From: an uncultured SAR86 cluster bacterium
GTDB taxonomy: Bacteria > Pseudomonadota > Gammaproteobacteria > Magnimaribacterales > AG-339-G14
Assembly (NCBI GenBank): GCA_902562135.1
Contig: CACESE010000011.1
Coordinates: 1-36,739, forward strand
Direction: 5' to 3'
DNA length: 36,739 bases
Notes under the pieces: model-generated
What the model saw: the letters and a program-made list of their open reading frames with translations, nothing else
The model's database searches: none
Told to the model about the DNA's origin: nothing
Position numbers and translations under genes: made by a program
Part shown: piece by piece, positions 3,304 through 36,739 of the stretch
Numbering within the stretch: position 1 is the stretch's first letter
How the letters are laid out: the number at the start of each line of letters is the position of its first letter

Positions 3304-3489
3304 ATGATTGATAAAAAATTATTAGATGTATTAGTTTGTCCAAAATCAAAACAAAAGTTAATTTTGGTAGGTGAGGAATTATTTAGTCTGGAAAGTAAGC
3401 TAGCTTATCCAATCAATGACGGCATTCCAATTCTATTGGTAAAAGAAGCTAGGGAATTGACTCCAGAAGAAATTAACAAAAACTCCTAA
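3304..3489 (+). CDS. Trm112/YcaR-family small protein
   Basis: A 61-residue protein of the Trm112/UPF0434 (YcaR) family, recognised from LLDVLVCPKSKQKL at the start and the conserved LAYPINDGIPILL block near residues 36-48. Eukaryotic and archaeal Trm112 activates methyltransferases; the bacterial role is not settled. Only one Cys (residue 12) remains of the zinc-binding set seen in E. coli YcaR; the CPxC partner is Ser. Many alpha-proteobacterial members look similar, so this is probably not a defect. It lies 10 nt after gltX and its TAA shares 4 nt with the stop of the convergent MBL gene. Confidence 0.85.
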   Translation: MIDKKLLDVLVCPKSKQKLILVGEELFSLESKLAYPINDGIPILLVKEARELTPEEINKNS

Positions 3490-4775
3490 TCAGTTTCAGC
3501 TAAATCACGTTTATTCTTGCCACTAGCTATACTTGCATGATTAAGAATGTTTCTTGCCATTGAAGATTCTTGTTTTGAGGAAAAGTTGTTATAAATAATT
3601 TTTCTAGCCTCGTGTACTTTTTGATTAGTTTCATCTGAATAAAATGCGGTTTCAATAAGATGTGCTGCTAGTTTGTCATTTCCATCATCACTAAGACTAA
3701 GAGCTTTTTTAATAATAACTTCTAATCCACCAGATAATTCAATCCAAATTTTAGATTCTTCCGATCTTGAGGCTGGTAACAATCGATCATATTCACCATC
3801 CCACCATCCACCGTATCGTCTCCAAACCATTCTAATTAAAAATTCAGGATCATCATAAACAGGTCTCAACCAAGGTAATTTTGTTAACTCTTCAGAAATT
3901 TTTACAGAATGAATTATTTCATTTAGTCTCTTGCCTTTATTCATCATTTCTAAAGTTTGAGTTTCTATTGAAGTCAGAAACTCAGAAGTTGTTGATAAAG
4001 CCTCTGTAATTCTTTTATTGCCGAATATAGGAAAACCATGACCTGGCAATAAAATTTCAGGTTTCAACTCAATCATATGATCTAAAGCGTCTGCCCAATC
4101 AGAAATATACCTTTGAACCTTTTGAGGATTGCCGCCATTTGGAACAGCCCATATAAATAAATCTCCAGGAGCTATTATTTTTTCTTCGGGAATATGCACC
4201 CAAGTGTGATCATCGGTTTCACCTCTTCCATGATATAAATCAAAAGTTAAGTTTCCTTGTTTGAAAGAAGTTTTAGATTTGTAAGTTTCATCTGGATATC
4301 TATATTCGGTAGGCCATTTAAATTTATCAACATCGATTGCAAACTGTCTGCGGTTGATAGCTGTATTCCAACCATTGGTTAATTTATATCTGTCAAAATG
4401 GTCTGGTGTGAGTTCATGGGCGTAAACTTTTGGAAGCGGTTGATTATTTATTTTGCATTCCTCATCAAATTTCTCAATAGCAAAAATATGATCAACATGA
4501 TGATGAGTAAAAATTGCTGCTTTTAAAAAATCTTTTGGCTTCCATTTTTTTATTTCGTTGTAACCGGTTTCAATGTCTAATTGGCTACCGGCATCAATCA
4601 TGACTAATCCATCTCCAGTATCGATTGCAAAAAAACCACCTATACCTTTCATTGCTAATAAATTTGATTTTATTTCTGTAGATCCCTCGTAAAAAGAATG
4701 CACAGGATGATGTTCAAATTTAGTGTCAAGTAAACCTTTCCAGGCTAATTCTGATAATTCATTTAAATCACTCAT
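3486..4775 (-). CDS. MBL-fold hydrolase related to alkyl/aryl sulfatases
   Basis: A 429-residue metallo-beta-lactamase-fold enzyme. The first metal motif is THHHVDH at about residues 90-96. A central GRGETDDHTWVHIPEEK block supplies acidic and His ligands, and LLPGHGFPIFG supplies a later His. The segment containing RRYGGWWDGEYDRLLPA resembles the alkyl-sulfatase dimerisation domain (PF14863). Compared with the SdsA1/BDS1 type it lacks a secretion signal and seems to end before the C-terminal SCP2-like substrate domain. It is therefore likely a cytoplasmic member that hydrolyses some sulfate ester, or another ester or thioester. Substrate is unknown. Its 3' end overlaps the Trm112-like gene by 4 nt, and it is divergent from the CoA-transferase gene with 68 bp between. 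Confidence 0.8.
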   Translation of the reverse strand: MSDLNELSELAWKGLLDTKFEHHPVHSFYEGSTEIKSNLLAMKGIGGFFAIDTGDGLVMIDAGSQLDIETGYNEIKKWKPKDFLKAAIFTHHHVDHIFAIEKFDEECKINNQPLPKVYAHELTPDHFDRYKLTNGWNTAINRRQFAIDVDKFKWPTEYRYPDETYKSKTSFKQGNLTFDLYHGRGETDDHTWVHIPEEKIIAPGDLFIWAVPNGGNPQKVQRYISDWADALDHMIELKPEILLPGHGFPIFGNKRITEALSTTSEFLTSIETQTLEMMNKGKRLNEIIHSVKISEELTKLPWLRPVYDDPEFLIRMVWRRYGGWWDGEYDRLLPASRSEESKIWIELSGGLEVIIKKALSLSDDGNDKLAAHLIETAFYSDETNQKVHEARKIIYNNFSSKQESSMARNILNHASIASGKNKRDLAETD

Positions 4776-9660: not shown

Positions 9661-9736
<76 letters not shown>

Positions 9737-14744: not shown

Positions 14745-17126
14745 ATGGACAAGAAACTTTTTATAAAACACCCCCTTACTTTAATTTTAACTATTTTTTT
14801 TAGTGCTTCTATTGCTTCTCAAGCATTTTTAGAAGAAGTTATAGTTTCAGCTGAAAAAAGATTAGAGAGCGTTCAAGACGTTTCTCAGGCCGTTACCGCC
14901 ATAACATCTTCAGAAATTGAGACAAAGAATATTAATTCTATGGTCGATTTGAGTGCAATCGTACCGGGAGTTACTGTTGCCAAGAATGAGGGTTATAAAA
15001 CCATTATTTCAATCCGTGGTATTGGTAACGAAACTAACCAAAATGCTATTGCTGCACCTTCGGTTGCCTTCCACCTAGATGGTGTATTTATAGCATCTCC
15101 ATTTTCTCTGCTTACCGATTTTGTTGATATAGATAGAATCGAAGTAATTAGAGGTCCACAAGGAACATTGTTTGGGCAAAACTCTACTGCTGGAGCAATA
15201 AATGTGGTGACAAAAGCTCCTTCGCTTGACGAAGAATCAAGCTCTTTGAGTATGTCTTTGGGTAACTACAATATGAAAAAAATATCATCAACATTTAATG
15301 TACCCATTTCAGAATCAGTTGCTACTAGTTTCTCATTTGCAGGACATAAACGCGATGGCTACTCTTTTAATACTATATTGGAACAAGAATTGGACGATGC
15401 TAACGATTTTAGCTTTAGAAACGACTGGTTTTTTCAATTAAGTGACACTTCTTCTTTAAGAATATTTGGTCAATATTATGATTTAGATAGGAACGGTTCT
15501 GCTATGAAAGGTATTGACGATACAACTGTAGATCCTAGAAAACTGGCACAAGACGCTCCTTCAGAGCAAACTTTAACATCTTCTGTGTATGCGGCGATTT
15601 ATGAAAAGGAACTTGATTTTGCTGATTTGAAAATTTTAGCAAGCACACAAAGAGATGATATCTCCGTTAGAAGAGATAATGACAGACATGATTTTGGTAT
15701 TGCTGCAACATCGATCCCAGGTGTAGCTTCTTACCCTTATGCCGAGTATAGATTTGAAACTTCTTTAGTCGAAACAACTACCTTTGAAATTAATTTGGTT
15801 TCTAATGAACCATTAATGGATGGAAAGTTAGATTGGACTTTTGGAGCTTTTTACATGGAACATGAAATTCAAAACAAAATTAGAGAATATATAAGTAGGG
15901 ATGATGATATTCCCGAGTATGTTTGTTCCGAGCCTTTTGCTAACACTTCAGTGCCTGGAACGGCAGCAACTAATAGTATCGGTGGAGATGGAACCGCAAC
16001 TTGTTTTGTAGTCGGTGGAGCTGTCGCTACATTCCTTGCTGAGCTGGGATTTGTAACCGATGCATTTCCTTCACGAGAGTCTTTATCAGTTTATGGACAG
16101 ACTACTTATAGTTTTAGTGACGACTTAAGATTAGTTTCAGGACTTAGATATACTGAGGATTCTTTTGCTACAAGAGTTGGTAATTTCTTCGCATTTGAGA
16201 CCAATGGTTTCGTAAGCACTCTAGACGAAACTGCTGAAGAGGTAACTGGAAAAATTACAATGGAATATGATATTCAAGATGACGCTATGTACTATATTTC
16301 TGCCACTAGAGGATTTAAACCAGGTGGGTCTAATTTAACTTTTGGGTTTGCTACTCAAGCTGAACTTAATGCTAACTTTAGATTTGGTTCGGTGCTAGTA
16401 TCGCCTTTGGTATTGCCTGCATTTGAACCTGAAACAGTTAATTCTTTAGAATTCGGTTTGAAAGCTGACTTCTATGATGGTAGAGCAAGGGCAAATTTAG
16501 CTATATTTGACTATTCATACGACAATCTTCAAATTCAAGCGACCGATCCAGATGTATTTAGAGGGGGAGTAGTGAATATTCCTGAGTCTGAAGTATCTGG
16601 TGTTGAGTTGGAACTAACAGGAATTTTAACCGACTCTTTAACATTAGACGCTAATCTTTCCTTCCTAGATACTGAAATAACCGGTTCTTTTAATTACTTA
16701 GATAATATTGACGCTGAACAATATACTTTTGGTCAGGAAGATCTTCGTCTTGCAGCAGCCACTGATATTAGAGGCAATGAGTTGGCCAAATCTCCAGAGT
16801 ATACTGCAGATATTAGTCTTACTCATGTAGCTGACTTTCCTTCAGGGAATACTATGACTTCAACATTGCAATACATCTATCGAGGAGAGTTTTTTCAGAG
16901 AGTTGCTAACAAGACAGCTCAAGACTTTGTTCCATCTTATGAAATTATAAATTTAACCTTCGGGATAGATTTTTCTGATTCAATGGGGCTTGATTTCGTA
17001 TTTGCAAATTTAACTGATGAAGATGGTGTTAATTCAACAATGACAGACGTGTTTGGAACTGCTGGAACTGGAGTTGAATTAATTCCTCCAAGACAATTCT
17101 TCACAAGATTTAGCGTAGATTTTTAA
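14745..17126 (+). CDS. TonB-dependent outer-membrane receptor
   Basis: Imports a scarce nutrient across the outer membrane using ExbB/ExbD/TonB energy. The 793-residue protein starts with a signal peptide (core LTLILTIFFSASIASQA). It is followed at once by the TonB-box-like EEVIVSAEKR and the plug domain (about 45-160), with SIRGIG, VAFHLDGVFI, IDRIEVIRGPQGTLFGQNSTAGAINV in order. The remainder is a beta-barrel, ending in FFTRFSVDF with the terminal Phe required for barrel assembly. Two Cys flank a Gly/Thr-rich extracellular loop near 393-425. The family form is that widespread in marine gamma-proteobacteria and sphingomonads; the substrate (siderophore, vitamin, glycan or lipid) is unknown. 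Single-gene unit with a hairpin downstream. Confidence 0.95.
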   Translation: MDKKLFIKHPLTLILTIFFSASIASQAFLEEVIVSAEKRLESVQDVSQAVTAITSSEIETKNINSMVDLSAIVPGVTVAKNEGYKTIISIRGIGNETNQNAIAAPSVAFHLDGVFIASPFSLLTDFVDIDRIEVIRGPQGTLFGQNSTAGAINVVTKAPSLDEESSSLSMSLGNYNMKKISSTFNVPISESVATSFSFAGHKRDGYSFNTILEQELDDANDFSFRNDWFFQLSDTSSLRIFGQYYDLDRNGSAMKGIDDTTVDPRKLAQDAPSEQTLTSSVYAAIYEKELDFADLKILASTQRDDISVRRDNDRHDFGIAATSIPGVASYPYAEYRFETSLVETTTFEINLVSNEPLMDGKLDWTFGAFYMEHEIQNKIREYISRDDDIPEYVCSEPFANTSVPGTAATNSIGGDGTATCFVVGGAVATFLAELGFVTDAFPSRESLSVYGQTTYSFSDDLRLVSGLRYTEDSFATRVGNFFAFETNGFVSTLDETAEEVTGKITMEYDIQDDAMYYISATRGFKPGGSNLTFGFATQAELNANFRFGSVLVSPLVLPAFEPETVNSLEFGLKADFYDGRARANLAIFDYSYDNLQIQATDPDVFRGGVVNIPESEVSGVELELTGILTDSLTLDANLSFLDTEITGSFNYLDNIDAEQYTFGQEDLRLAAATDIRGNELAKSPEYTADISLTHVADFPSGNTMTSTLQYIYRGEFFQRVANKTAQDFVPSYEIINLTFGIDFSDSMGLDFVFANLTDEDGVNSTMTDVFGTAGTGVELIPPRQFFTRFSVDF

Positions 17127-28583: not shown

Positions 28584-30899
28584 ATGTTAAAAAAATTTGT
28601 TTATTTTTTCTTTACAATTTTTCATATTGTTAATCTTCACAGCATAACCATAGATGGTGAATTGTCTGAACCTGAATGGCAAAGTGCTAATTCTTTTACA
28701 GATTTTCTAACTATTTTTCCAGATACTTTAGATACTCCCAAATATAAAACAGAGGCTAAATATTTTGCTGACGAAAAGGGTATATATTTTGCTTTTATAA
28801 ATTATCAACCTAAAGAAAAGCAAATTTTTCAGAAACATCCTAGAGATTCTTTTTATGCAAATGCTGATAGAAATTACGTGATTATAGATTTTAATAATAA
28901 TGCAAATATAGGATACGAATTTACAGTAACTCTTGGTAATTCTATAAGAGATGCAATCTTTGTAGATGAAAATGATTTTTCCGATGAGTGGGATGCAATT
29001 TGGTATGCAAAAACTAAAAGTTACGAAGATTATTGGATATCAGAATTTTTGATTCCATGGGACGTTGCTCCAATGGTAAATGTAGAAGGTCCATATCGTG
29101 AGATAAGTGTCTCTTTAGCAAGATGGACCTTCAGTGAAAATGAAGTTTATAACTCTCCTGGATTAAGCTTCTACAAATCACCTTTTTTATCAAAATTTAA
29201 AAAGTTACAGGTTAGAAATCTTAATACTCAAAAAACTCGAATAGATTTTTTTCCCTACGCAAGCTTTACCAACAATTTTATCCAAGATAATAGACAGATA
29301 AATATTGGAGGAGAAATATTTTGGGATATTAATCAGAACTCAAAGTTAGATTTCACTCTTAATCCAGATTTTGGACAAGTTGAAAGTGATGACGTCATTG
29401 TAAACTTTTCTGCAATCGAGACTTACTATCCAGATAAGAGACCTTTTTTTACTGAAAACCAAACACTTTTTGACGTAACTGGATGGAACCTTAGATTTAT
29501 CAATACTAGAAGAATAGGTGCAATTCCAGATAAATGTTCTGATACTGACAGAAGTCATTTAGGAGAATGTAAAGACAGTTTAATTGATACTACCGATATC
29601 AACTTTGCACTTCGCTATACTCAAAGAGATGAGTCAAATGAATATGGGGTTTTTAGTGCATTTGAAGACGATTCCCTATTCTCTGAAGGTAGAGATTTCC
29701 TAGCGTTTAGATTTAGATCAACTAGAGATTATTTAAATACTAAAATTGGTTATTTATTTACTTCAGTTGATAGACCTTCTATTGAAAGAACTGCAGAAAC
29801 ACACACTATTGATTATGATTTAAAACCCTCAAATTCATCTCGAGTTTATGGTTGGGTTAGTCAGGTTAATACTGAGGAATTAGGTAACAAAAAAACAGGT
29901 TATGGTTTTAGGTCCTTAGTTACAAATCGTTTTTCAGATAAATTATTTGGATTGCTTGTCTTCAATTACCTTGATGAAAACTTCAATATAAATGATATGG
30001 GCTACGTCGAACAATATGGAAATAGTTTCATTGGAACTTATCTTCAATATAGCAACCCAAATAATGATGAAACTTCTAATATTTCTCAACAGAATTATGC
30101 CTTGAGAATGGGCTATAACAGGTCTTATCAGGGATTTGGTGGCGGCATAGGCGCCACTCTAGAATATGAATTAAGTTTTAAAAATAGTTCAAGACTTGAA
30201 ATAGAATGCAATTGCACTTTATTCAGAGGCAAGGATTATGTTGAGACTAGAAATTATGCAGGTTCGCCTTACCTAGAATCATTAGGAAATCATGACCTGA
30301 TTCTAGAATATTCAACTCCAAGAACAAATATGTTTCAACATAGATTTAAATTAGGTTATGAAACAAGCGGTTATGAAACTTCAGATAATAATAGCGATCT
30401 TAGATCTGAAGGACATACAATCGGTTATGGAATTTTGATGAAGCTGTCTGAAAATTTAAAAATATTTCTTAGACCGATAGAATATCAAACACAGTCAAAT
30501 TGGAGTGTCTGGAACACTGAAAATCTTTTTGGTTATTACGACAAAGAAATGATTAGTTCAGGTATTAACTTAGATTGGTTTATAGGAGACAGACAGGAAG
30601 TAAGGTTAAAAGGAAAAATTTATGGAATTAAGGCTAATGACGCAAGATCTTACAGAGCTAACTCCTCAGGTTATTTAAATATTTCCAACGATATCTTAAA
30701 TTCATTTGAATTATCAGAAACTGCTTTTCAAGTAAGATATAAATATCAATTTGCTCCTCTCTCAGATTTATATGTCGTTTATACAAGGGGTGGTAAATAT
30801 TCTTTTAATAGAGAAAATTCGTTCGAAAAAATTTATTCTGGCGCTTGGTCTAATCAAAACCTCGATAAATTTATTATTAAGTTAAGATACAAGCTTTAA
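28584..30899 (+). CDS. CBM9-like domain plus DUF5916-type outer-membrane barrel
   Basis: A 771-residue surface protein. A signal peptide (KKFVYFFFTIFHIVNLHS) is followed by a carbohydrate-binding family-9-like domain (about 20-200) beginning ITIDGELSEPEWQSA, with the family's DISVSLARW-like strand seen as EISVSLARWTF. From about 230 onward come alternating aromatic/polar strands starting LDFTLNPDFGQVESDD and NFSAIETYYPDKRPFFTENQ, which mark DUF5916 proteins. It ends in an amphipathic strand, IIKLRYKL. Two Cys pairs (CSDTDRSHLGEC and CNC) may stabilise loops. Function is unknown; family context in marine bacteria suggests a polymer-binding or uptake role. Confidence 0.85.
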   Translation: MLKKFVYFFFTIFHIVNLHSITIDGELSEPEWQSANSFTDFLTIFPDTLDTPKYKTEAKYFADEKGIYFAFINYQPKEKQIFQKHPRDSFYANADRNYVIIDFNNNANIGYEFTVTLGNSIRDAIFVDENDFSDEWDAIWYAKTKSYEDYWISEFLIPWDVAPMVNVEGPYREISVSLARWTFSENEVYNSPGLSFYKSPFLSKFKKLQVRNLNTQKTRIDFFPYASFTNNFIQDNRQINIGGEIFWDINQNSKLDFTLNPDFGQVESDDVIVNFSAIETYYPDKRPFFTENQTLFDVTGWNLRFINTRRIGAIPDKCSDTDRSHLGECKDSLIDTTDINFALRYTQRDESNEYGVFSAFEDDSLFSEGRDFLAFRFRSTRDYLNTKIGYLFTSVDRPSIERTAETHTIDYDLKPSNSSRVYGWVSQVNTEELGNKKTGYGFRSLVTNRFSDKLFGLLVFNYLDENFNINDMGYVEQYGNSFIGTYLQYSNPNNDETSNISQQNYALRMGYNRSYQGFGGGIGATLEYELSFKNSSRLEIECNCTLFRGKDYVETRNYAGSPYLESLGNHDLILEYSTPRTNMFQHRFKLGYETSGYETSDNNSDLRSEGHTIGYGILMKLSENLKIFLRPIEYQTQSNWSVWNTENLFGYYDKEMISSGINLDWFIGDRQEVRLKGKIYGIKANDARSYRANSSGYLNISNDILNSFELSETAFQVRYKYQFAPLSDLYVVYTRGGKYSFNRENSFEKIYSGAWSNQNLDKFIIKLRYKL

Positions 30900-30934: not shown

Positions 30935-31399
30935 ATGGGTTTTATCGTTGAATACATAAATACTTTATTGGGTGGATTGGCTGCATTAGTTGGAATCATT
31001 TCAATTTATTATTTAATAAGAGAAATGCAGGAACAAAATAGAGTCGCTAGAGCAAATGCACGACAAAATGTTTCTGATAGCCATCAAGAGATTGCTTTAA
31101 AAGGAATGACTCCTCGAATGGTAAAAATAAAACTTAAATTAAGAAATAACGAAGACCTTACTCCTGAGGAAGACGCTGCTTATTTGACTTATTTTAGCAT
31201 TATGCTCAGATCCAGAGAGAATCAGCACTATCAATATACAATTGGAATGATTGATGCTGCCGAATGGGAAAATTATTTAAAATCCTTTAAAACTCTTTTT
31301 AAGTCTGAATATCATTTAAAGCTTTGGAGTTTCATGAAAGAAACTTTTAATGATGAATTTGTAAAAATAGTTGATGGAATTGTCGATGAAAATAATTGA
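30935..31399 (+). CDS. Membrane-anchored protein of unknown function, first gene of the signalling operon
   Basis: A 154-residue protein with one N-terminal membrane helix (about 9-29, LLGGLAALVGIISIYYLI). A basic amphipathic stretch follows (REMQEQNRVARANARQNV), then a helical cytoplasmic domain with SDSHQEIALKGM, DLTPEEDAAYLTYFSIMLRSRENQHYQYTIGMID and W-rich helices. Such proteins are common hypotheticals in marine proteobacteria; I know of no function. Its end overlaps the EAL gene by 14 nt (26 nt with the alternative start), tying it to the cyclic-di-GMP operon; it may localise the system or sense membrane state. Confidence 0.72.
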   Translation: MGFIVEYINTLLGGLAALVGIISIYYLIREMQEQNRVARANARQNVSDSHQEIALKGMTPRMVKIKLKLRNNEDLTPEEDAAYLTYFSIMLRSRENQHYQYTIGMIDAAEWENYLKSFKTLFKSEYHLKLWSFMKETFNDEFVKIVDGIVDENN

Positions 31400-32483
31400 A
31401 GCTGAACAGGCGCAATACTTAATAAAATCCTTACAGCACCATCCAAGTCCTTACATTATTTATGATAAAGATTCAGGGGTAGAGTGGCTAAATAATTCTG
31501 CTCAATATATTTTTAATCTTAACGATAATGAATCTATTTCAATTGAACCTATTACAGACGTTAAGAAAAATAATAATAAATCTGAGATCGCAAGATCTTT
31601 TGATACAGATATTCAAATCAAATTAAGAGATATTGAATTTTTTCTGAGAACACGTATTCATGAAATACCTTTCGAAGAAAAGTCATCTTTTTTTCTAATA
31701 GAAGCTTTAGCAAATTCAGAAGCCGCCCTAGATGCATTGAAGGAAACTATTAGTTGTTTAGAAAATGACAGAATTAGCATGGCTTTTCAAAAACAAGTTG
31801 ATATCGAAACTGGAGATATATTAGGAGTTGAATCTTTATTAAGACTTCTCGATGAAGAGGGTAATATAATTTCCAATGATAAATTAATTCCTTTAGTTGA
31901 AGGAGAGCATCTTTTTTCATTAGTTGTGCTTGCTTCACTAAAAAAATTAAAAGAATTCTTTAATTTCTTAAACAAAGAAAATTTAGGAAACTTTACAACT
32001 TACTTAAATGTCTCTGCTTACACCGTTATGCAAGAGAATTTTACTAAAATAATTTTAGATTTTGTAAACGAAAATAATTTGAAAGAAAATCAATTAGGCC
32101 TTGAAATAACAGAAACTGCTGAATTAGAAGATAGAAAAAAAGCTTCTGAAGCTTTTGAATCCCTTAAAAAAAGTGGAGTTCCTTTAGCATTAGATGATTT
32201 TGGTGCAGGTTACTCTTCCCTGAGTTATCTAAGAGATTTACCAATAAGTTTAATAAAACTTGATAAAAATTTTGCTGCAACAATTGACTTGTCAGATACC
32301 AAAGAGCTTGTTAGATTTGTAGTGAATATATCAGATAATCTTGGTTTAGATATGATTGTGGAAGGTATCGAGACTGAGGATCAGAAAAATATTTTTCTAG
32401 AATTAGGCTGTAAAAGAGGTCAAGGTTATTTCTTTCATAGACCAGAATTTCTAGAAGATTTTGCAGGAAATTTAGATGAATGA
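31386..32483 (+). CDS. PAS-like/EAL-domain cyclic-di-GMP phosphodiesterase
   Basis: Breaks down cyclic-di-GMP to pGpG. N-terminal about 15-110 is PAS-like (PSPYIIYDKDSGVEWLN opening). The EAL domain covers about 125-360 and its signature is ESL. All eight catalytic positions appear present: Glu149, Asn208 (LNVSA), Glu240 (EITETAE), Asp270-Asp271 (DDFGAGYSS), Lys291 (IKLDK), Glu326 (VEGIE) and Gln346 (GQGYFF); numbering from ATG 31386. Alternative starts are ATG 31374 and TTG 31371. It overlaps both neighbours (14 and 8 nt), so it is probably made in balance with the diguanylate-cyclase protein. Confidence 0.9.
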   Translation: MKIIEAEQAQYLIKSLQHHPSPYIIYDKDSGVEWLNNSAQYIFNLNDNESISIEPITDVKKNNNKSEIARSFDTDIQIKLRDIEFFLRTRIHEIPFEEKSSFFLIEALANSEAALDALKETISCLENDRISMAFQKQVDIETGDILGVESLLRLLDEEGNIISNDKLIPLVEGEHLFSLVVLASLKKLKEFFNFLNKENLGNFTTYLNVSAYTVMQENFTKIILDFVNENNLKENQLGLEITETAELEDRKKASEAFESLKKSGVPLALDDFGAGYSSLSYLRDLPISLIKLDKNFAATIDLSDTKELVRFVVNISDNLGLDMIVEGIETEDQKNIFLELGCKRGQGYFFHRPEFLEDFAGNLDE

Positions 32484-33933
32484 AATTTCTAAACCTTCAA
32501 AAGGTGCAGAAAAGATATTATTAGCCCAAATAAAACAGGAGTTTTCAGCTCCTGCAGAGGCAATTGAACATTATGTCGACTTAGTAGAGCAATATGCTAA
32601 TGAAAACAATTTAAATGTTTCAGATGAAATTAACCAAATTAAAGATGCTGAAAAAAAGTTATTAAGTCAATATGAAGAAGCTTTTAATGAAAATACTTCT
32701 TTAAATAAAGAAAAAAAATCATCTGAAGAATATTCCGTTCTTAGACACAACCTTAGAACACCTCTAAATGCAATTATTGGCTATAGCGAAATTTTGATGG
32801 AAGATTTTGAGGATGAATTATCTGAAGAAATAGTTGAAGATCTTAATACTATCTTGAACTTATCCAGGGATACCGAAAAGGCTATTGAAAGGTTTGTTGA
32901 TTTTATTAGAGGAGAAATTACTGAAATAAACTCTAACGATTCAGATGCTGGCCAAATTCAAAATGCAGAATCTCTTTTTAAGTCTCTCGGCGATATTGAC
33001 TATAGTTTAGAGATTGATGAATCTTTAAACGATTCCGACATATTAATTGTTGACGATAATAAAACTAATTGTGAAGTTCTATCTAGAAGACTTTCACAAA
33101 ATGGACTCAAATGTAGAGTGGCTTTTGATGGAACTTCGGCAATTGAAGAAGTAGAAAGGAAAACCCCAGATTTGATACTGTTAGATGTCATGTTGCCTGA
33201 CATAAATGGATTAGAGCTTTTAAAACGTTTTAGAAAAAAAAATAAAATTGAAAACCTACCTATTATTATGGTTTCTGCGTTCAATGATGTGGATAGCGTA
33301 GCTAAATGTATAAAACTTGGTGCATCAGATTATTTACCAAAGCCACTTAATGGAACTATCCTAATGGCTAAAGCAATTGCAAGTTTAGAAGCAAAATACT
33401 TTCGTTCAAGAGAGCAGGAACTTTTAAATGAACTTCATATAAGGGCTACAACTTGTCCATTAACAGGTATATCCAATCGAAAAGTTGTTTTTGACAAGAT
33501 AGACAAAGCTTACAAAAAGTCTCAAAAAAAAGATTCTTATACATTTAGTATTCTTTCTATGGATATTGACTTCTTTAAGTCAATAAATGATACCTATGGT
33601 CATCCTGGCGGAGATGAAGTATTAAAAAGTTTTGCTAATAAATTGAAAACTTCATGTAAACCAAATTTAGTTGGAAGAGTTGGAGGAGAAGAATTTATAG
33701 CAGTTATTGATAAAATAAAGGACGAATCTATTGAAGAATATTGCGAAAATTTAAGAAAAGAAATAGTTGATTTATCAATAAAATTTCAAGATCATAATAT
33801 AAAAGTTACTATGAGCGGAGGAGTAGCATCTTCTGATGAGATAGATAATTTAGAGGATTTGATTAACTTAGCAGATGAAAGGCTTTATGAAGCTAAGGAA
33901 GGGGGGCGTAATCAAATTATTTTCAGAAAATAG
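32476..33933 (+). CDS. Tandem HisKA-like + REC + GGEEF diguanylate cyclase
   Basis: A 485-residue signalling protein. Residues about 12-75 look like a HisKA hairpin (LLAQIKQEFSAPAEAIEHY) in which Gln21 occupies the His site. Residues about 82-150 are a second hairpin with HNLRTPLNAIIGYSEIL, His91 intact. REC follows (188-305) with phosphoacceptor Asp237 in LLDVMLPD and Lys289 in PKP. The GGDEF domain (325-485) has MDIDFFKSIND and the active loop VGGEEF (403-407); the I-site RxxD is CKPN (394-397), so product inhibition is probably lost. There is no HATPase domain, so it cannot make its own phosphate. PleD-like output is expected. Confidence 0.9.
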   Translation: MNEISKPSKGAEKILLAQIKQEFSAPAEAIEHYVDLVEQYANENNLNVSDEINQIKDAEKKLLSQYEEAFNENTSLNKEKKSSEEYSVLRHNLRTPLNAIIGYSEILMEDFEDELSEEIVEDLNTILNLSRDTEKAIERFVDFIRGEITEINSNDSDAGQIQNAESLFKSLGDIDYSLEIDESLNDSDILIVDDNKTNCEVLSRRLSQNGLKCRVAFDGTSAIEEVERKTPDLILLDVMLPDINGLELLKRFRKKNKIENLPIIMVSAFNDVDSVAKCIKLGASDYLPKPLNGTILMAKAIASLEAKYFRSREQELLNELHIRATTCPLTGISNRKVVFDKIDKAYKKSQKKDSYTFSILSMDIDFFKSINDTYGHPGGDEVLKSFANKLKTSCKPNLVGRVGGEEFIAVIDKIKDESIEEYCENLRKEIVDLSIKFQDHNIKVTMSGGVASSDEIDNLEDLINLADERLYEAKEGGRNQIIFRK

Positions 33934-33941
33934 GAGATAAA

Positions 33942-34304
33942 ATGAAAAAAATTCTTTACGTTGAAGACAATGAAATGAATAGAGATATGTTAGGTCGAAG
34001 ACTTACAAGACGTGATTATGAAGTGATCTTTGCTTTTGATGGTCAAGAGGGTCTTGATAAAATGAAATCTGAGTCTCCTGATTTAGTTTTAATGGATATG
34101 GGTCTTCCAGTTTTAGATGGTTGGGATGCAACTACTCAAGCAAAGGCTGATCCAGAGATCTCAAATATTCCAATAATTGCTTTGACAGCACACGCTATGG
34201 AAACTGATAAACAAAAAGCTCTTGATTGCGGTGCTGATGATTTTGACACTAAACCTGTAGATTTTAAAAGACTCCTAGAAAAAATTGAGTCAAATATGGC
34301 TTAA
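33942..34304 (+). CDS. Single-domain response regulator (CheY/DivK-like)
   Basis: A 120-residue receiver domain with no output domain. The acidic pocket is in LYVEDNEMNRD (Glu8, Asp9), the phosphoacceptor is Asp52 in LVLMDMGLP, Thr82 is in ALTAHA and Lys104 in DTKPVD. The DivK-like LTAHAMETDKQKALDCGADDF stretch suggests a protein that passes phosphate or binds a partner and does not bind DNA. A good AGGAGA ribosome site (33932-33937) precedes the ATG, unlike its neighbours, so it may be made at higher levels. Its stop shares TTAA with the convergent histidine kinase. Confidence 0.92.
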   Translation: MKKILYVEDNEMNRDMLGRRLTRRDYEVIFAFDGQEGLDKMKSESPDLVLMDMGLPVLDGWDATTQAKADPEISNIPIIALTAHAMETDKQKALDCGADDFDTKPVDFKRLLEKIESNMA

Positions 34305-36739
34305 CTATTTAAAACTTTTGATATCAAACTGGGTAATTGGTTAATTGAAACTTCATCTTTCTTTAGCAAACCCTCAACATTGTTTTTCAATAAATCCTCT
34401 TGCACTTCAGTCAATTCTTTTCCTGAATAAACTATTACATTGGGCTTTGTTTTAAATTCCATCGTTACAAATTTTTCAAGAAATTCGAAGCCATCCATTC
34501 TAGGCATTTCTAAATCAAGTACTATGAGAGTAGGATTTTTTTCTAAATTCTTTAATCCTTCTTTACCATCTTTTGCAGTAATTGCTTTGAAACCTGTATC
34601 TTCAAGAGCTCTTGACAATATATCTCTAGTATTTTCGTCATCATCAACAATTAAAATAGTATTATTTTTTGAATCGCTTGAAACAAATTTTTGAACTATT
34701 TTTAAAAATTTATTTCTTTCGATTGGTTTAGTTAAATAATCATCAGCACCTAAAGAAAAGGCTAAAGATTCTTGAGACATTTGAGAAACCATTATCACCG
34801 GAATATCTTTAATTTCTTTATCCGATTTACATTCTTTAAGAATAGACCATCCATCTCTTCCAGGCATTAGAACATCTAAAAGAATCAATTTAGGTTTAAC
34901 TTCTCTGATCATATTTAATCCTTGTTCACCATTAGTTGCTCCAAGAAGAGTGAGACCAGCCTTTTTAATAGTTCTTTTAACTAAATCATGCATTGCTACA
35001 TCATCATCTATTAGCACACATAAATTTTCTCCTTTCAAAGAATTAATCTCTTCATTTTCTAAATCTTCCGCATCATCACATATTCTAGGTACAAAAATTG
35101 TAAAAACAGAGCCTTTACCTTTTTCTGAGGAAACAGTCACGCCACCACCCATTAATTCAGCAAATCTTTTTGAAATAGGTAATCCTAAACCTGTTCCTCC
35201 ATGAGTTGCAGAAGTAGATCTTTCGGCTTGCTCATACTCTTCAAAGACTTTAGCAACTCCTTCAGCACTCATTCCTTCTCCATCATCTGTGACTTTAAAT
35301 TCAATCATCTCAATTCCATCTTTATCCATTGTTGTTACGTCCATTGTTACAAGGCCATTATTAGTGAACTTAAAAGCATTACTTAAAAAATTGGTGACAC
35401 ATTGCCTAAGTTTTGTTTCGTCTTGGGTCATTGAACCTATTGCTTCCTGAACATTTATCTTAAATCCATTGTCATTTTTTGTAGCTAAAGGAGCGTTAAT
35501 ATCTCTAAGAGTCTCTACGACTTTTTCTATCTCAAAACTAGTTAAATACAGCTCCATTTTTCCAGATTCAATTTTTGATAAATCTAGAATGTTATTAATT
35601 AAGGAAAGTAAATGTGTTCCAGAAGATGTGATTTTTTTAAGATCCGGCATAAGATCTTCGTATCCTAAATCCTCACATTCTTCATAGAGCATTTCCCCGT
35701 AGCCTAAAATTGCATTTAAAGGAGTTCTTAATTCATGACTCATGTTGGCAAAAAATTTACTTCTTTGTTCGTTTGCTTCTAACGCTTCATCTCTGGATTC
35801 TTCCATTTCTTTTGTTCTTGTATCGATTAGAACTTGAACTTCTTCAGCCATTCTGGTGAAAGCTACTGTCATTAATTCAATGGAAGCTTCTTCACCTTCC
35901 TCATCTGAACTTTCTTTAGCTAAAGATTGCATCTTATTGATATCGTTTAATATCAGCGTTCTTGAATCTCCTTCAAGCTCATCGGCTAAAATAGTCATTT
36001 TTTCAATAATTGCGTTATCTCTTTCTTTTCTTCTTTTAGCTTGTTCAGATCTAATGTTTTCCATTTCATTCAAATGGCCCCTATAAATTTCTAATGCTTT
36101 TGCTAGTTCGCCTACTTCATCATTTTCTGATCTAAGAAGTCCTGTTCGTTGTGGCATTGTTTTTGAAAGATCTCCGCTAGTTAGAGCTTGAAGAACTTCG
36201 ATTGCTTTATTTACAGAGCCAAATATATTAGCTGAAATAATTGAAGTAATAGCTATTACAAGAACCATTACTACAATTATTAATACCAAAATGTATGAGA
36301 GGATGGTATTTTCTTGTTCGATGCTCTCTTTCTCATTTCTAAATATAAAAAATTGAGCTTTATCTGATGATAGATAAGAACTTAATGGCAGAAGGGTAAT
36401 AGAAGAACCCAAGGAAGCATCTCTCGCAGAAGTTCTATTGCCTTGATCTCTAAGGTTTAGATTTGCTTTATCTACGTGTGCTTTTAAATTAGTAATACCA
36501 TAATTAGTTGTTTCATACGATCCTAAGTCAGATTCAAAACTGGCATAGTCATCACCCAAAGATATAACTCCTTCCTGAGTTTGAACAGCCGTAACTAATT
36601 CAAATTCATCACCAAAGGTTTCCATTGATTTTCTAATATCAATACCAAGAACAATTATTGCTTCAGCGTCTCTAGAGAAAGCTTTGACCGGAAAGGCCAT
36701 GATTTGATTTAAAGTACTTATTTCAGACCCTGAGATATC
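34301..36739 (-). CDS. Membrane hybrid histidine kinase with two receiver domains, 5' end outside the window
   Basis: At least 812 residues; the frame runs open to the right edge, and the Met at 36700 reads as internal. Numbering from that Met: an extracytoplasmic Cache-like sensor part (1-130), a membrane helix (about 135-157), HAMP (about 158-212), and a long coiled coil with an acidic patch (SSDEEGEE). HisKA follows with His322 in SHELRTP, then HATPase (about 425-540: N box NFLSNAFKF, DDGEGM, GGTGLGL). REC1 has Asp609 (LLDVLMP) and REC2 has Asp729 (VLDLEMP). It is a likely phosphodonor for the neighbouring HisKA/REC/GGEEF protein and response regulator. The sensed signal is unknown. Confidence 0.93.
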   Translation of the reverse strand, partial: DISGSEISTLNQIMAFPVKAFSRDAEAIIVLGIDIRKSMETFGDEFELVTAVQTQEGVISLGDDYASFESDLGSYETTNYGITNLKAHVDKANLNLRDQGNRTSARDASLGSSITLLPLSSYLSSDKAQFFIFRNEKESIEQENTILSYILVLIIVVMVLVIAITSIISANIFGSVNKAIEVLQALTSGDLSKTMPQRTGLLRSENDEVGELAKALEIYRGHLNEMENIRSEQAKRRKERDNAIIEKMTILADELEGDSRTLILNDINKMQSLAKESSDEEGEEASIELMTVAFTRMAEEVQVLIDTRTKEMEESRDEALEANEQRSKFFANMSHELRTPLNAILGYGEMLYEECEDLGYEDLMPDLKKITSSGTHLLSLINNILDLSKIESGKMELYLTSFEIEKVVETLRDINAPLATKNDNGFKINVQEAIGSMTQDETKLRQCVTNFLSNAFKFTNNGLVTMDVTTMDKDGIEMIEFKVTDDGEGMSAEGVAKVFEEYEQAERSTSATHGGTGLGLPISKRFAELMGGGVTVSSEKGKGSVFTIFVPRICDDAEDLENEEINSLKGENLCVLIDDDVAMHDLVKRTIKKAGLTLLGATNGEQGLNMIREVKPKLILLDVLMPGRDGWSILKECKSDKEIKDIPVIMVSQMSQESLAFSLGADDYLTKPIERNKFLKIVQKFVSSDSKNNTILIVDDDENTRDILSRALEDTGFKAITAKDGKEGLKNLEKNPTLIVLDLEMPRMDGFEFLEKFVTMEFKTKPNVIVYSGKELTEVQEDLLKNNVEGLLKKDEVSINQLPSLISKVLNS

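Follow-up and report, generated by a model that had tools for sequence, protein, structure and literature searches.

A conserved cyclic-di-GMP gene block in SAR86 bacteria with the anatomy of a Spo0-like phosphorelay

The window analysed here is a 36,739-nucleotide stretch of DNA from an uncultured SAR86 cluster bacterium (GenBank assembly GCA_902562135.1, contig CACESE010000011.1), part of a 0.99-Mb draft genome of SAR86 type that is 76% complete. At its end lies a block of genes for cyclic-di-GMP (c-di-GMP) signalling, which a first-pass annotation, made from the sequence alone, had put forward as a candidate undescribed five-gene phosphorelay island. All five open reading frames (ORFs) lie where that annotation had placed them. 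The first, on the forward strand (30935–31399), encodes a small protein of 154 residues that matches no Pfam family; its hydrophobic N-terminus, judged by eye, is the sole ground for calling it membrane-anchored. It is followed on the same strand by the gene for an EAL phosphodiesterase (31386–32483; 365 residues from the ATG; Pfam EAL, E=5.2e-51), the N-terminal region of which looks PAS-like by eye, and by a diguanylate cyclase gene (32476–33933) whose product is arranged as pseudo-DHp, DHp, REC and GGEEF. The fourth forward-strand gene (33942–34304) encodes a lone receiver of 120 residues (Response_reg, E=4.7e-26). Convergent to it on the reverse strand (34301–36739) is the gene for a membrane hybrid kinase with a weak HAMP match followed by HisKA, HATPase_c, REC and REC domains. 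The kinase is cut by the window end, so that 812 residues lie inside the window compared with 996 in the nearest relative. Neighbouring genes overlap by 14 bases (small protein and EAL, counted from the ATG at 31386), 8 bases (EAL and cyclase) and 4 bases (receiver and convergent kinase), and close packing recurs in 62 stretches, with median gaps of −7.5, −8, +11 and −4 bases when longest-ORF starts are used. The gene content given by the annotation (EAL protein, ATPase-free REC-GGEEF cyclase, lone receiver and double-receiver kinase) is thus borne out by the ORFs and Pfam, and its overlaps and convergent kinase by the coordinates. The extent of the block needed revision, in that the five genes are real but the kinase is incomplete in the window and a sixth gene, for a TonB_C protein, belongs to the block as well.

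Residue conservation was assessed on the distinct sequences that remained after identical and short ones had been dropped (59 of 70 for the cyclase and for the EAL protein, 56 of 70 for the kinase, 53 of 69 for the lone receiver and 56 of 68 for the small protein); among the receivers, one row fails at nearly every column, its frame being broken or misplaced. In the cyclase, Pfam recognises HisKA (E=2.6e-10), Response_reg (E=5e-29) and GGDEF (PF00990, E=1e-37), and HATPase_c was not found by the same search. The active-site motif GGEEF (residues 403–407; 33682–33696, forward strand) keeps both glycines, the second glutamate and the phenylalanine in 59/59 sequences and the first glutamate in 58/59, the remaining one being an unreadable letter. 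Having the GG[DE]EF motif and, by profile and structure relatives, a GGDEF fold, the protein is a diguanylate cyclase; in profile and structure comparisons alike, PleD and DgcR come out as its best relatives. It falls outside the PleD family itself (NCBIfam PRK09581; 217 bits against a cut-off of 474). The allosteric inhibitory RxxD site, which is common but not universal in GGDEF cyclases, is absent, with arginine at position 394 in 1/59 sequences and aspartate at position 397 in 1/59. His91 (codon 32746–32748, forward strand, within the DHp hairpin), Asp237 (33184–33186, forward strand, the predicted phospho-acceptor of the cyclase receiver), Lys289 and Gln21 are all invariant, as is the R-H-x-L-R-T-P box around His91, which places Thr95 at His+4 in 59/59. 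A model of the full-length cyclase has low pLDDT over much of the receiver region and covers only residues 289–485 well. In the EAL protein, Glu149, Asn208, Glu240, Asp270, Asp271, Lys291, Glu326 and Gln346, which we take to form the catalytic set with the roles usually assigned to each, are invariant in 59/59 sequences, and Pfam finds no receiver domain.

The N-terminal part of the cyclase carries two hairpins. The first is a pseudo-DHp hairpin (residues 9–74; 32500–32697, forward strand) with Gln21 at the position of the phospho-histidine, and the second is a DHp hairpin of HisKA type (residues 83–145; 32722–32910, forward strand) without an ATPase domain. When hhalign profiles of residues 8–78 and 79–148 were compared, the two hairpins aligned with a probability of 97% (E=8.7e-11, score 52.3), Gln21 of the first standing opposite His91 of the second, and the best score in 50 column-permuted controls was 16.3. 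Since permutation destroys helix periodicity, natural segments were added as a second control. Against 41 such segments of the block proteins, the first hairpin scored 51.5 with the kinase DHp domain, 31.7 and 22.9 with two kinase windows overlapping that domain and at most 21.5 with the others. By profile, the second hairpin is similar to kinase DHp domains whose structures are known (E=6.7e-5), and the first matches ChpT weakly and without significance (E=0.3). A model of residues 1–150 contains four helices (pLDDT 92.4, pTM 0.85). The cyclase N-terminus consists of two homologous DHp hairpins that are predicted to fold into one four-helix bundle. This may be read as the bundle of the Spo0B/ChpT dimer built within a single chain and having one active histidine.

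In the kinase, Pfam identifies HisKA, HATPase_c and two stretches of Response_reg, and His335, Asn450, Asp622 and Asp742 (window numbering) are invariant in 56 sequences. The presence of the HisKA histidine, the HATPase_c domain and the receiver aspartate makes it a classical hybrid histidine kinase. Asp52 of the lone receiver is invariant in 53/53 sequences. The Hpt profile PF01627 has no match in the cyclase up to E 0.1 and none in 61 genomes at E 0.001, at which 8 of 14 control genomes are positive. To judge by anatomy, a chain running from the kinase histidine through a receiver aspartate and His91 to Asp237 is complete. Potential partners are few, with between 2 and 5 HisKA matches in genomes that have the block and between 0 and 3 in those that do not (61 genomes); among the matches listed, HisKA frames of ∼1000 residues occur only in block-bearing genomes. 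In a one-contig genome (G004), the four HisKA matches are the block kinase, the cyclase DHp and two frames of 450 and 378 residues.

The first-pass annotation had proposed conservation of the neighbourhood in relatives as a check, and the block is indeed conserved. From 47 loci, 13 (L056–L068; not titled SAR86, with best segments at most 39% identical) were excluded from all counts, leaving 34, of which 30 are titled SAR86 and four (L025, L028, L029 and L055) only Gammaproteobacteria. The EAL, cyclase, receiver and kinase genes, each at least in part, keep their order and orientation in 34/34 of these named loci. The small protein is in place in 33/34, and in the remaining locus the contig begins within the EAL gene. 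One named relative is 99–100% identical to the window across the five genes. All five are also present in 32 of 37 further stretches (36 genomes, four families), the other five stretches being cut by contig ends; this set, which represents 36 of the 68 genomes with a match and was chosen by the analyst, overlaps the 34 named loci, and the two counts are not additive. Since the order persists in other families, whose proteins are 46–60% identical (the most distant family standing at about 46%), the block is not a product of chance. The genes flanking it differ between families while the block itself is constant (37 of 71 stretches, 33 genomes). A gene for a DUF5916 protein (window 28584–30899) lies upstream in five of the 37 stretches, each of them belonging to the same genus as the window. 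Weak relatives of the small first protein occur in five genomes among 397 others sampled, and in the 3.4-kb stretches around them (L152–L157) no other block gene was matched. Two of the 32 stretches with all five genes show damaged frames. In one of them (L086, genome G107) the receiver and kinase frames are broken, and a gene of the same genome that we presume from its domains to be HflX-like also has stops, which suggests assembly errors. In the single-contig genome G004, from the window's genus, the EAL protein is shortened to 203 residues (L091, 7691–8302) and the cyclase is open; the breakdown arm may have been lost there, unless this too is an assembly error.

A sixth gene, encoding a small TonB_C protein, is located directly upstream of the kinase gene and on the same strand in 37/37 stretches (33 genomes), the TonB_C assignment coming from Pfam scans of four of them. 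In the window's genome it lies just past the window end, and its product, judged by eye, is probably exported. Beyond it, a divergent gene for a CBS-pair protein is found in 26 of 37 stretches (for example, L022, 13292–13690). One lineage also appears to carry a transferred copy of the block. In G020, a g3 genome, the five block proteins share 96% identity with those of G003 and G004 from genus g1, and in the tree the G020 block falls together with theirs. The HflX-like protein of G020 is 60% identical to that of the window, like those of the block-free g3 genomes G008 and G014, the value within g1 being 74–84%. The stretch that G020 has in common with g1 runs from the small protein through the CBS gene, with different genes outside it on both sides; the CBS gene appears to have moved with the block. 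With the HflX-like gene as the one gene for comparison, these sequences point to transfer of the cassette into the G020 lineage.

Across 151 genomes of the order, a GGDEF match was found in 66 and an EAL match in 68, never more than one of each per genome; in the window's genome these sole matches are the block's own cyclase and phosphodiesterase. Every genome with GGDEF also has an EAL match, and the two EAL-only genomes, G016 (L090) and G115 (L092), are explained by contig cuts. Because there is at most one match of each kind and the mismatches are contig cuts, the block is the only c-di-GMP system detected in these bacteria, and its cyclase and phosphodiesterase are present or absent together. 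These genome-wide counts cover the GGDEF and EAL domains. At a completeness of at least 90%, GGDEF is present in 19 and EAL in 20 of 40 genomes, so that absence elsewhere is due partly but not wholly to incompleteness. Receptors for the second messenger were also sought. PilZ was found in 0/151 genomes, with 5 of 14 control genomes positive, and was rejected as the effector. MshEN matches occur in 7/151 genomes at E 0.001 (5 over the cut-off), only G107 and G129 of these also having GGDEF, and this candidate was rejected as well. In the window and four loci, Rfam gave three tRNAs and no c-di-GMP riboswitch near the block; positions 9661–9733 of the window are a tRNA gene. The lack of a detectable PilZ receptor points to an unknown effector.

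The relay proteins recur outside SAR86. A cluster in Sinorhizobium meliloti (CP050512.1, HB773_18690 to HB773_18680; L108, 4055–9524) encodes a Tll0287-like protein, annotated as DUF3365, next to a kinase, a lone receiver and a protein with the order DHp-DHp-REC-adenylate/guanylate cyclase. Its receiver is 58% identical to that of the window, the kinase core 42% over 511 residues and the DHp-to-REC part of the cyclase 34% over 309 residues. It differs in its class III cyclase output in place of GGEEF and in the Tll0287-like neighbour of the kinase, and among the 13 features listed for the stretch, two of them hypothetical and directly after the trio, no product is named EAL, phosphodiesterase or TonB. 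In a phylum-wide search of 398 genomes, 80 had a match, many of them to ordinary kinases, and 12 stretches were picked from those 80; further matches, some starting within the first 35 model positions, lie outside this sample. Other genomes of the same class gave no match starting before model position 31 at E 1e-10 (398-genome sample, up to 8 candidates scored per genome). The trio of kinase, lone receiver and DHp-DHp-REC protein is present in 6 of the 12 stretches (G481, G337, G412, G233, G289 and G509), partial in two (G167, receiver and cyclase; G175, cyclase only) and missing from four (L145, L146, L147 and L149). The output is Guanylate_cyc in G481, G337, G233 and G167 by Pfam and in G289 and G175 by alignment, SpoIIE/PP2C in G509 by Pfam, and unreadable in the remaining module. 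The G509 trio (L144, 8044–14003) comes from a 1.2-Mb genome of another class and has its genes rearranged. Kinase neighbours vary as well, with a Tll0287-like protein in G481 and G412, a solute-binding protein in G337, a DUF3047 protein in G509 and, in G233, an opposite-strand gene without a Pfam family. The glutamine and histidine of the two hairpins are kept in 7/7 module proteins aligned (G289 and G175 are outside that alignment). Identity to the window proteins is 50–64% for the lone receiver (7 modules) and 60–70% for the kinase DHp (6 modules) and is lower for other domains; in 7/7 between-module comparisons, conservation is higher for the lone receiver than for the receiver of the cyclase. 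The core trio is therefore not unique to SAR86, which qualifies the term 'undescribed' in the first-pass annotation. No account of this SAR86 locus or of a tandem-DHp trio was found in the open-access literature searched, including passages of PMC11481889, PMC9981736, PMC7020829 and PMC5898713, which is weak evidence of absence.

In a Pfam scan of ten window proteins, the genes elsewhere in the window have the look of ordinary metabolism and include those for an alkyl-sulfatase-like protein (3486–4775), a TonB-dependent receptor (14745–17126) and a cytochrome P450 (17755–19056).

We consider it fairly probable that the block is a self-contained c-di-GMP cassette in which a Spo0-like relay, with phosphotransferase and response regulator fused, drives c-di-GMP synthesis. 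The membrane hybrid kinase would autophosphorylate on His335, with the TonB_C protein beside it possibly supplying or modulating a periplasmic input. Phosphate would then pass to a receiver, either the lone one at Asp52 or one of those within the kinase, next to His91 in the ATPase-free DHp domain that forms part of the cyclase, and lastly to Asp237 of the same chain, switching c-di-GMP synthesis by the GGEEF domain. The two DHp hairpins would act as a single-chain phosphotransferase of the Spo0B/ChpT kind with one active histidine. We infer from anatomy the transfers and their order, the lone receiver's place among them and the direction of their effect on the cyclase. The EAL enzyme, encoded in the same gene row, which may be co-transcribed, would set the rate of breakdown and would not itself be a target of phosphorylation; since it has no receiver domain, it is best seen as a drain that runs constantly or under separate sensing. 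The first-pass annotation had suggested phosphotransfer from the kinase to His91 and/or Asp237, with both synthesis and breakdown under relay control. The phosphorelay idea is strengthened by the invariance of His91, Asp237, Asp52, His335, Asp622 and Asp742, by the finding of Hpt in none of 61 genomes and by the occurrence of the trio, joined to different outputs, in other classes. Control of the breakdown arm is unsupported because the phosphodiesterase lacks a receiver.

A number of observations weigh against such a relay. DHp homology is no proof of phosphotransfer, and the domain could be a dimeriser or a phosphatase; the residue after His91 is asparagine in 51/59 sequences and aspartate in 8/59. 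The kinase has two receivers of its own, which would leave the lone one as a possible side branch or sink. Hpt was sought with a single Pfam profile. The models used are of single chains, and Foldseek with the model of residues 1–150 returned no PDB match at E 0.001 or better. The VIA structure search gave generic four-helix bundles (best Z 14.0, to a designed protein, about typical for helical models), with no DHp, Spo0B or ChpT structure among the matches shown. Because DHp bundles are normally formed by two chains, these structure searches exclude nothing, and they lend the bundle reading no support either. Outside SAR86 the unit is looser, the lone receiver of G509 lying beyond the kinase, G167 having no kinase seen beside the receiver and cyclase, and G175 having neither receiver nor kinase.

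A plainer, if in our judgement unlikely, arrangement would resemble that of PleD and DgcR, the kinase phosphorylating Asp237 directly, the DHp domain serving only as a dimerisation scaffold and the lone receiver as a sink for phosphate or as a feedback element. In its favour, the REC-GGDEF architecture is standard, PleD and DgcR are the closest relatives, and the kinase gene adjoins that of the lone receiver, one gene away from the cyclase. However, the invariant His91 and its box (59 sequences), together with a histidine in 7/7 other module proteins, exceed what a scaffold would require, and in all seven comparisons the cyclase receiver is less conserved than the lone one. More improbable still is that the DHp-DHp unit is a phosphatase or docking domain that strips the lone receiver or Asp237 and so sets signal decay. 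Kinase DHp domains often have phosphatase activity, and Thr95 at His+4 is invariant, but in HisKA boxes active as kinase or phosphatase the histidine is usually followed by an acidic residue, where the cyclase has mostly asparagine. That the five genes are merely linked, without forming one functional circuit, hardly seems credible. These genomes are small and dense, which would favour fortuitous linkage, yet the block stays constant while its flanks change between families, GGDEF and EAL come and go together across the 151 genomes, and the G020 lineage appears to carry a transferred copy of the entire block. Neutral linkage was rejected on the basis of this conservation and co-occurrence.

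A wider and more tentative reading, to which we give somewhat less than even weight, is of a portable relay core made up of the double-receiver hybrid kinase, the lone receiver with its high conservation and a terminal protein whose receiver is fused to a single-chain phosphotransferase of tandem-DHp type. Its input neighbours (TonB_C, Tll0287-like or solute-binding proteins) and outputs (adenylate-type cyclase, PP2C or diguanylate cyclase) would be interchangeable, and in SAR86 it would constitute the entire c-di-GMP system, moving between lineages as a cassette and acting through an unknown receptor. Many bacteria studied for c-di-GMP have numerous cyclases, which makes the wiring hard to read; with a single cyclase and a single phosphodiesterase sharing a locus in an ocean bacterium, the whole circuit becomes testable. 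The tandem-DHp design, if true, would be a compact fusion of a phosphotransferase to its response regulator, and the differing outputs, if true, would bring adenylate-type cyclase, PP2C and c-di-GMP signalling together on a common relay core. What is new here is the presence of a putative phosphotransferase, a receiver and a cyclase in one chain, the multi-step phosphorelay itself being already known.

A close parallel among known systems is the Spo0 relay of Bacillus subtilis (Kin, Spo0F, Spo0B and Spo0A), which likewise comprises a kinase, a lone receiver, an ATPase-inactive phosphotransferase of DHp fold and an output receiver. The SAR86 block has the lone receiver, the ATPase-free DHp unit and the output receiver in one conserved set with a kinase. 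It departs from Spo0 in lacking a separate dimeric phosphotransferase: the Spo0B-like and Spo0A-like parts are in one chain, the bundle is built from two hairpins of that chain with one histidine, and the output is a cyclase rather than a DNA-binding domain. PleD (REC-REC-GGDEF) and DgcR have the REC-GGDEF core in common with the window cyclase and are not known to have DHp domains, and the window cyclase differs further in having no RxxD site. Passages of PMC5898713 and PMC9981736 mention Spo0F and Spo0B. Passages of the former describe, in Sphingomonas melonis, a single-domain receiver (SdrG) that feeds an ATPase-degenerate DHp phosphotransferase (PhyT) and then a terminal receiver (PhyR), with Spo0B and ChpT named as parallels (PMC5898713). 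As presented in those passages, this system differs in being of the HWE/HisKA_2 type with an HRxxN motif, in having separate proteins and kinases scattered in the genome, and in its output, the general stress response (PMC5898713). Pseudo-kinase phosphotransferases in hybrid-kinase relays are treated in passages of PMC9981736, among them the CckA-ChpT-CtrA/CpdR pathway of Caulobacter, which also couples a hybrid kinase to a DHp-type phosphotransferase; ChpT is a separate protein with a degenerate CA domain, and no second-messenger cyclase is fused to it (PMC9981736). Finally, HmrABCX of Caulobacter, to judge from a portion of PMC11481889, resembles the SAR86 block as a putative hybrid-kinase phosphorelay acting on c-di-GMP, and differs from it in using separate HPt proteins (PMC11481889).

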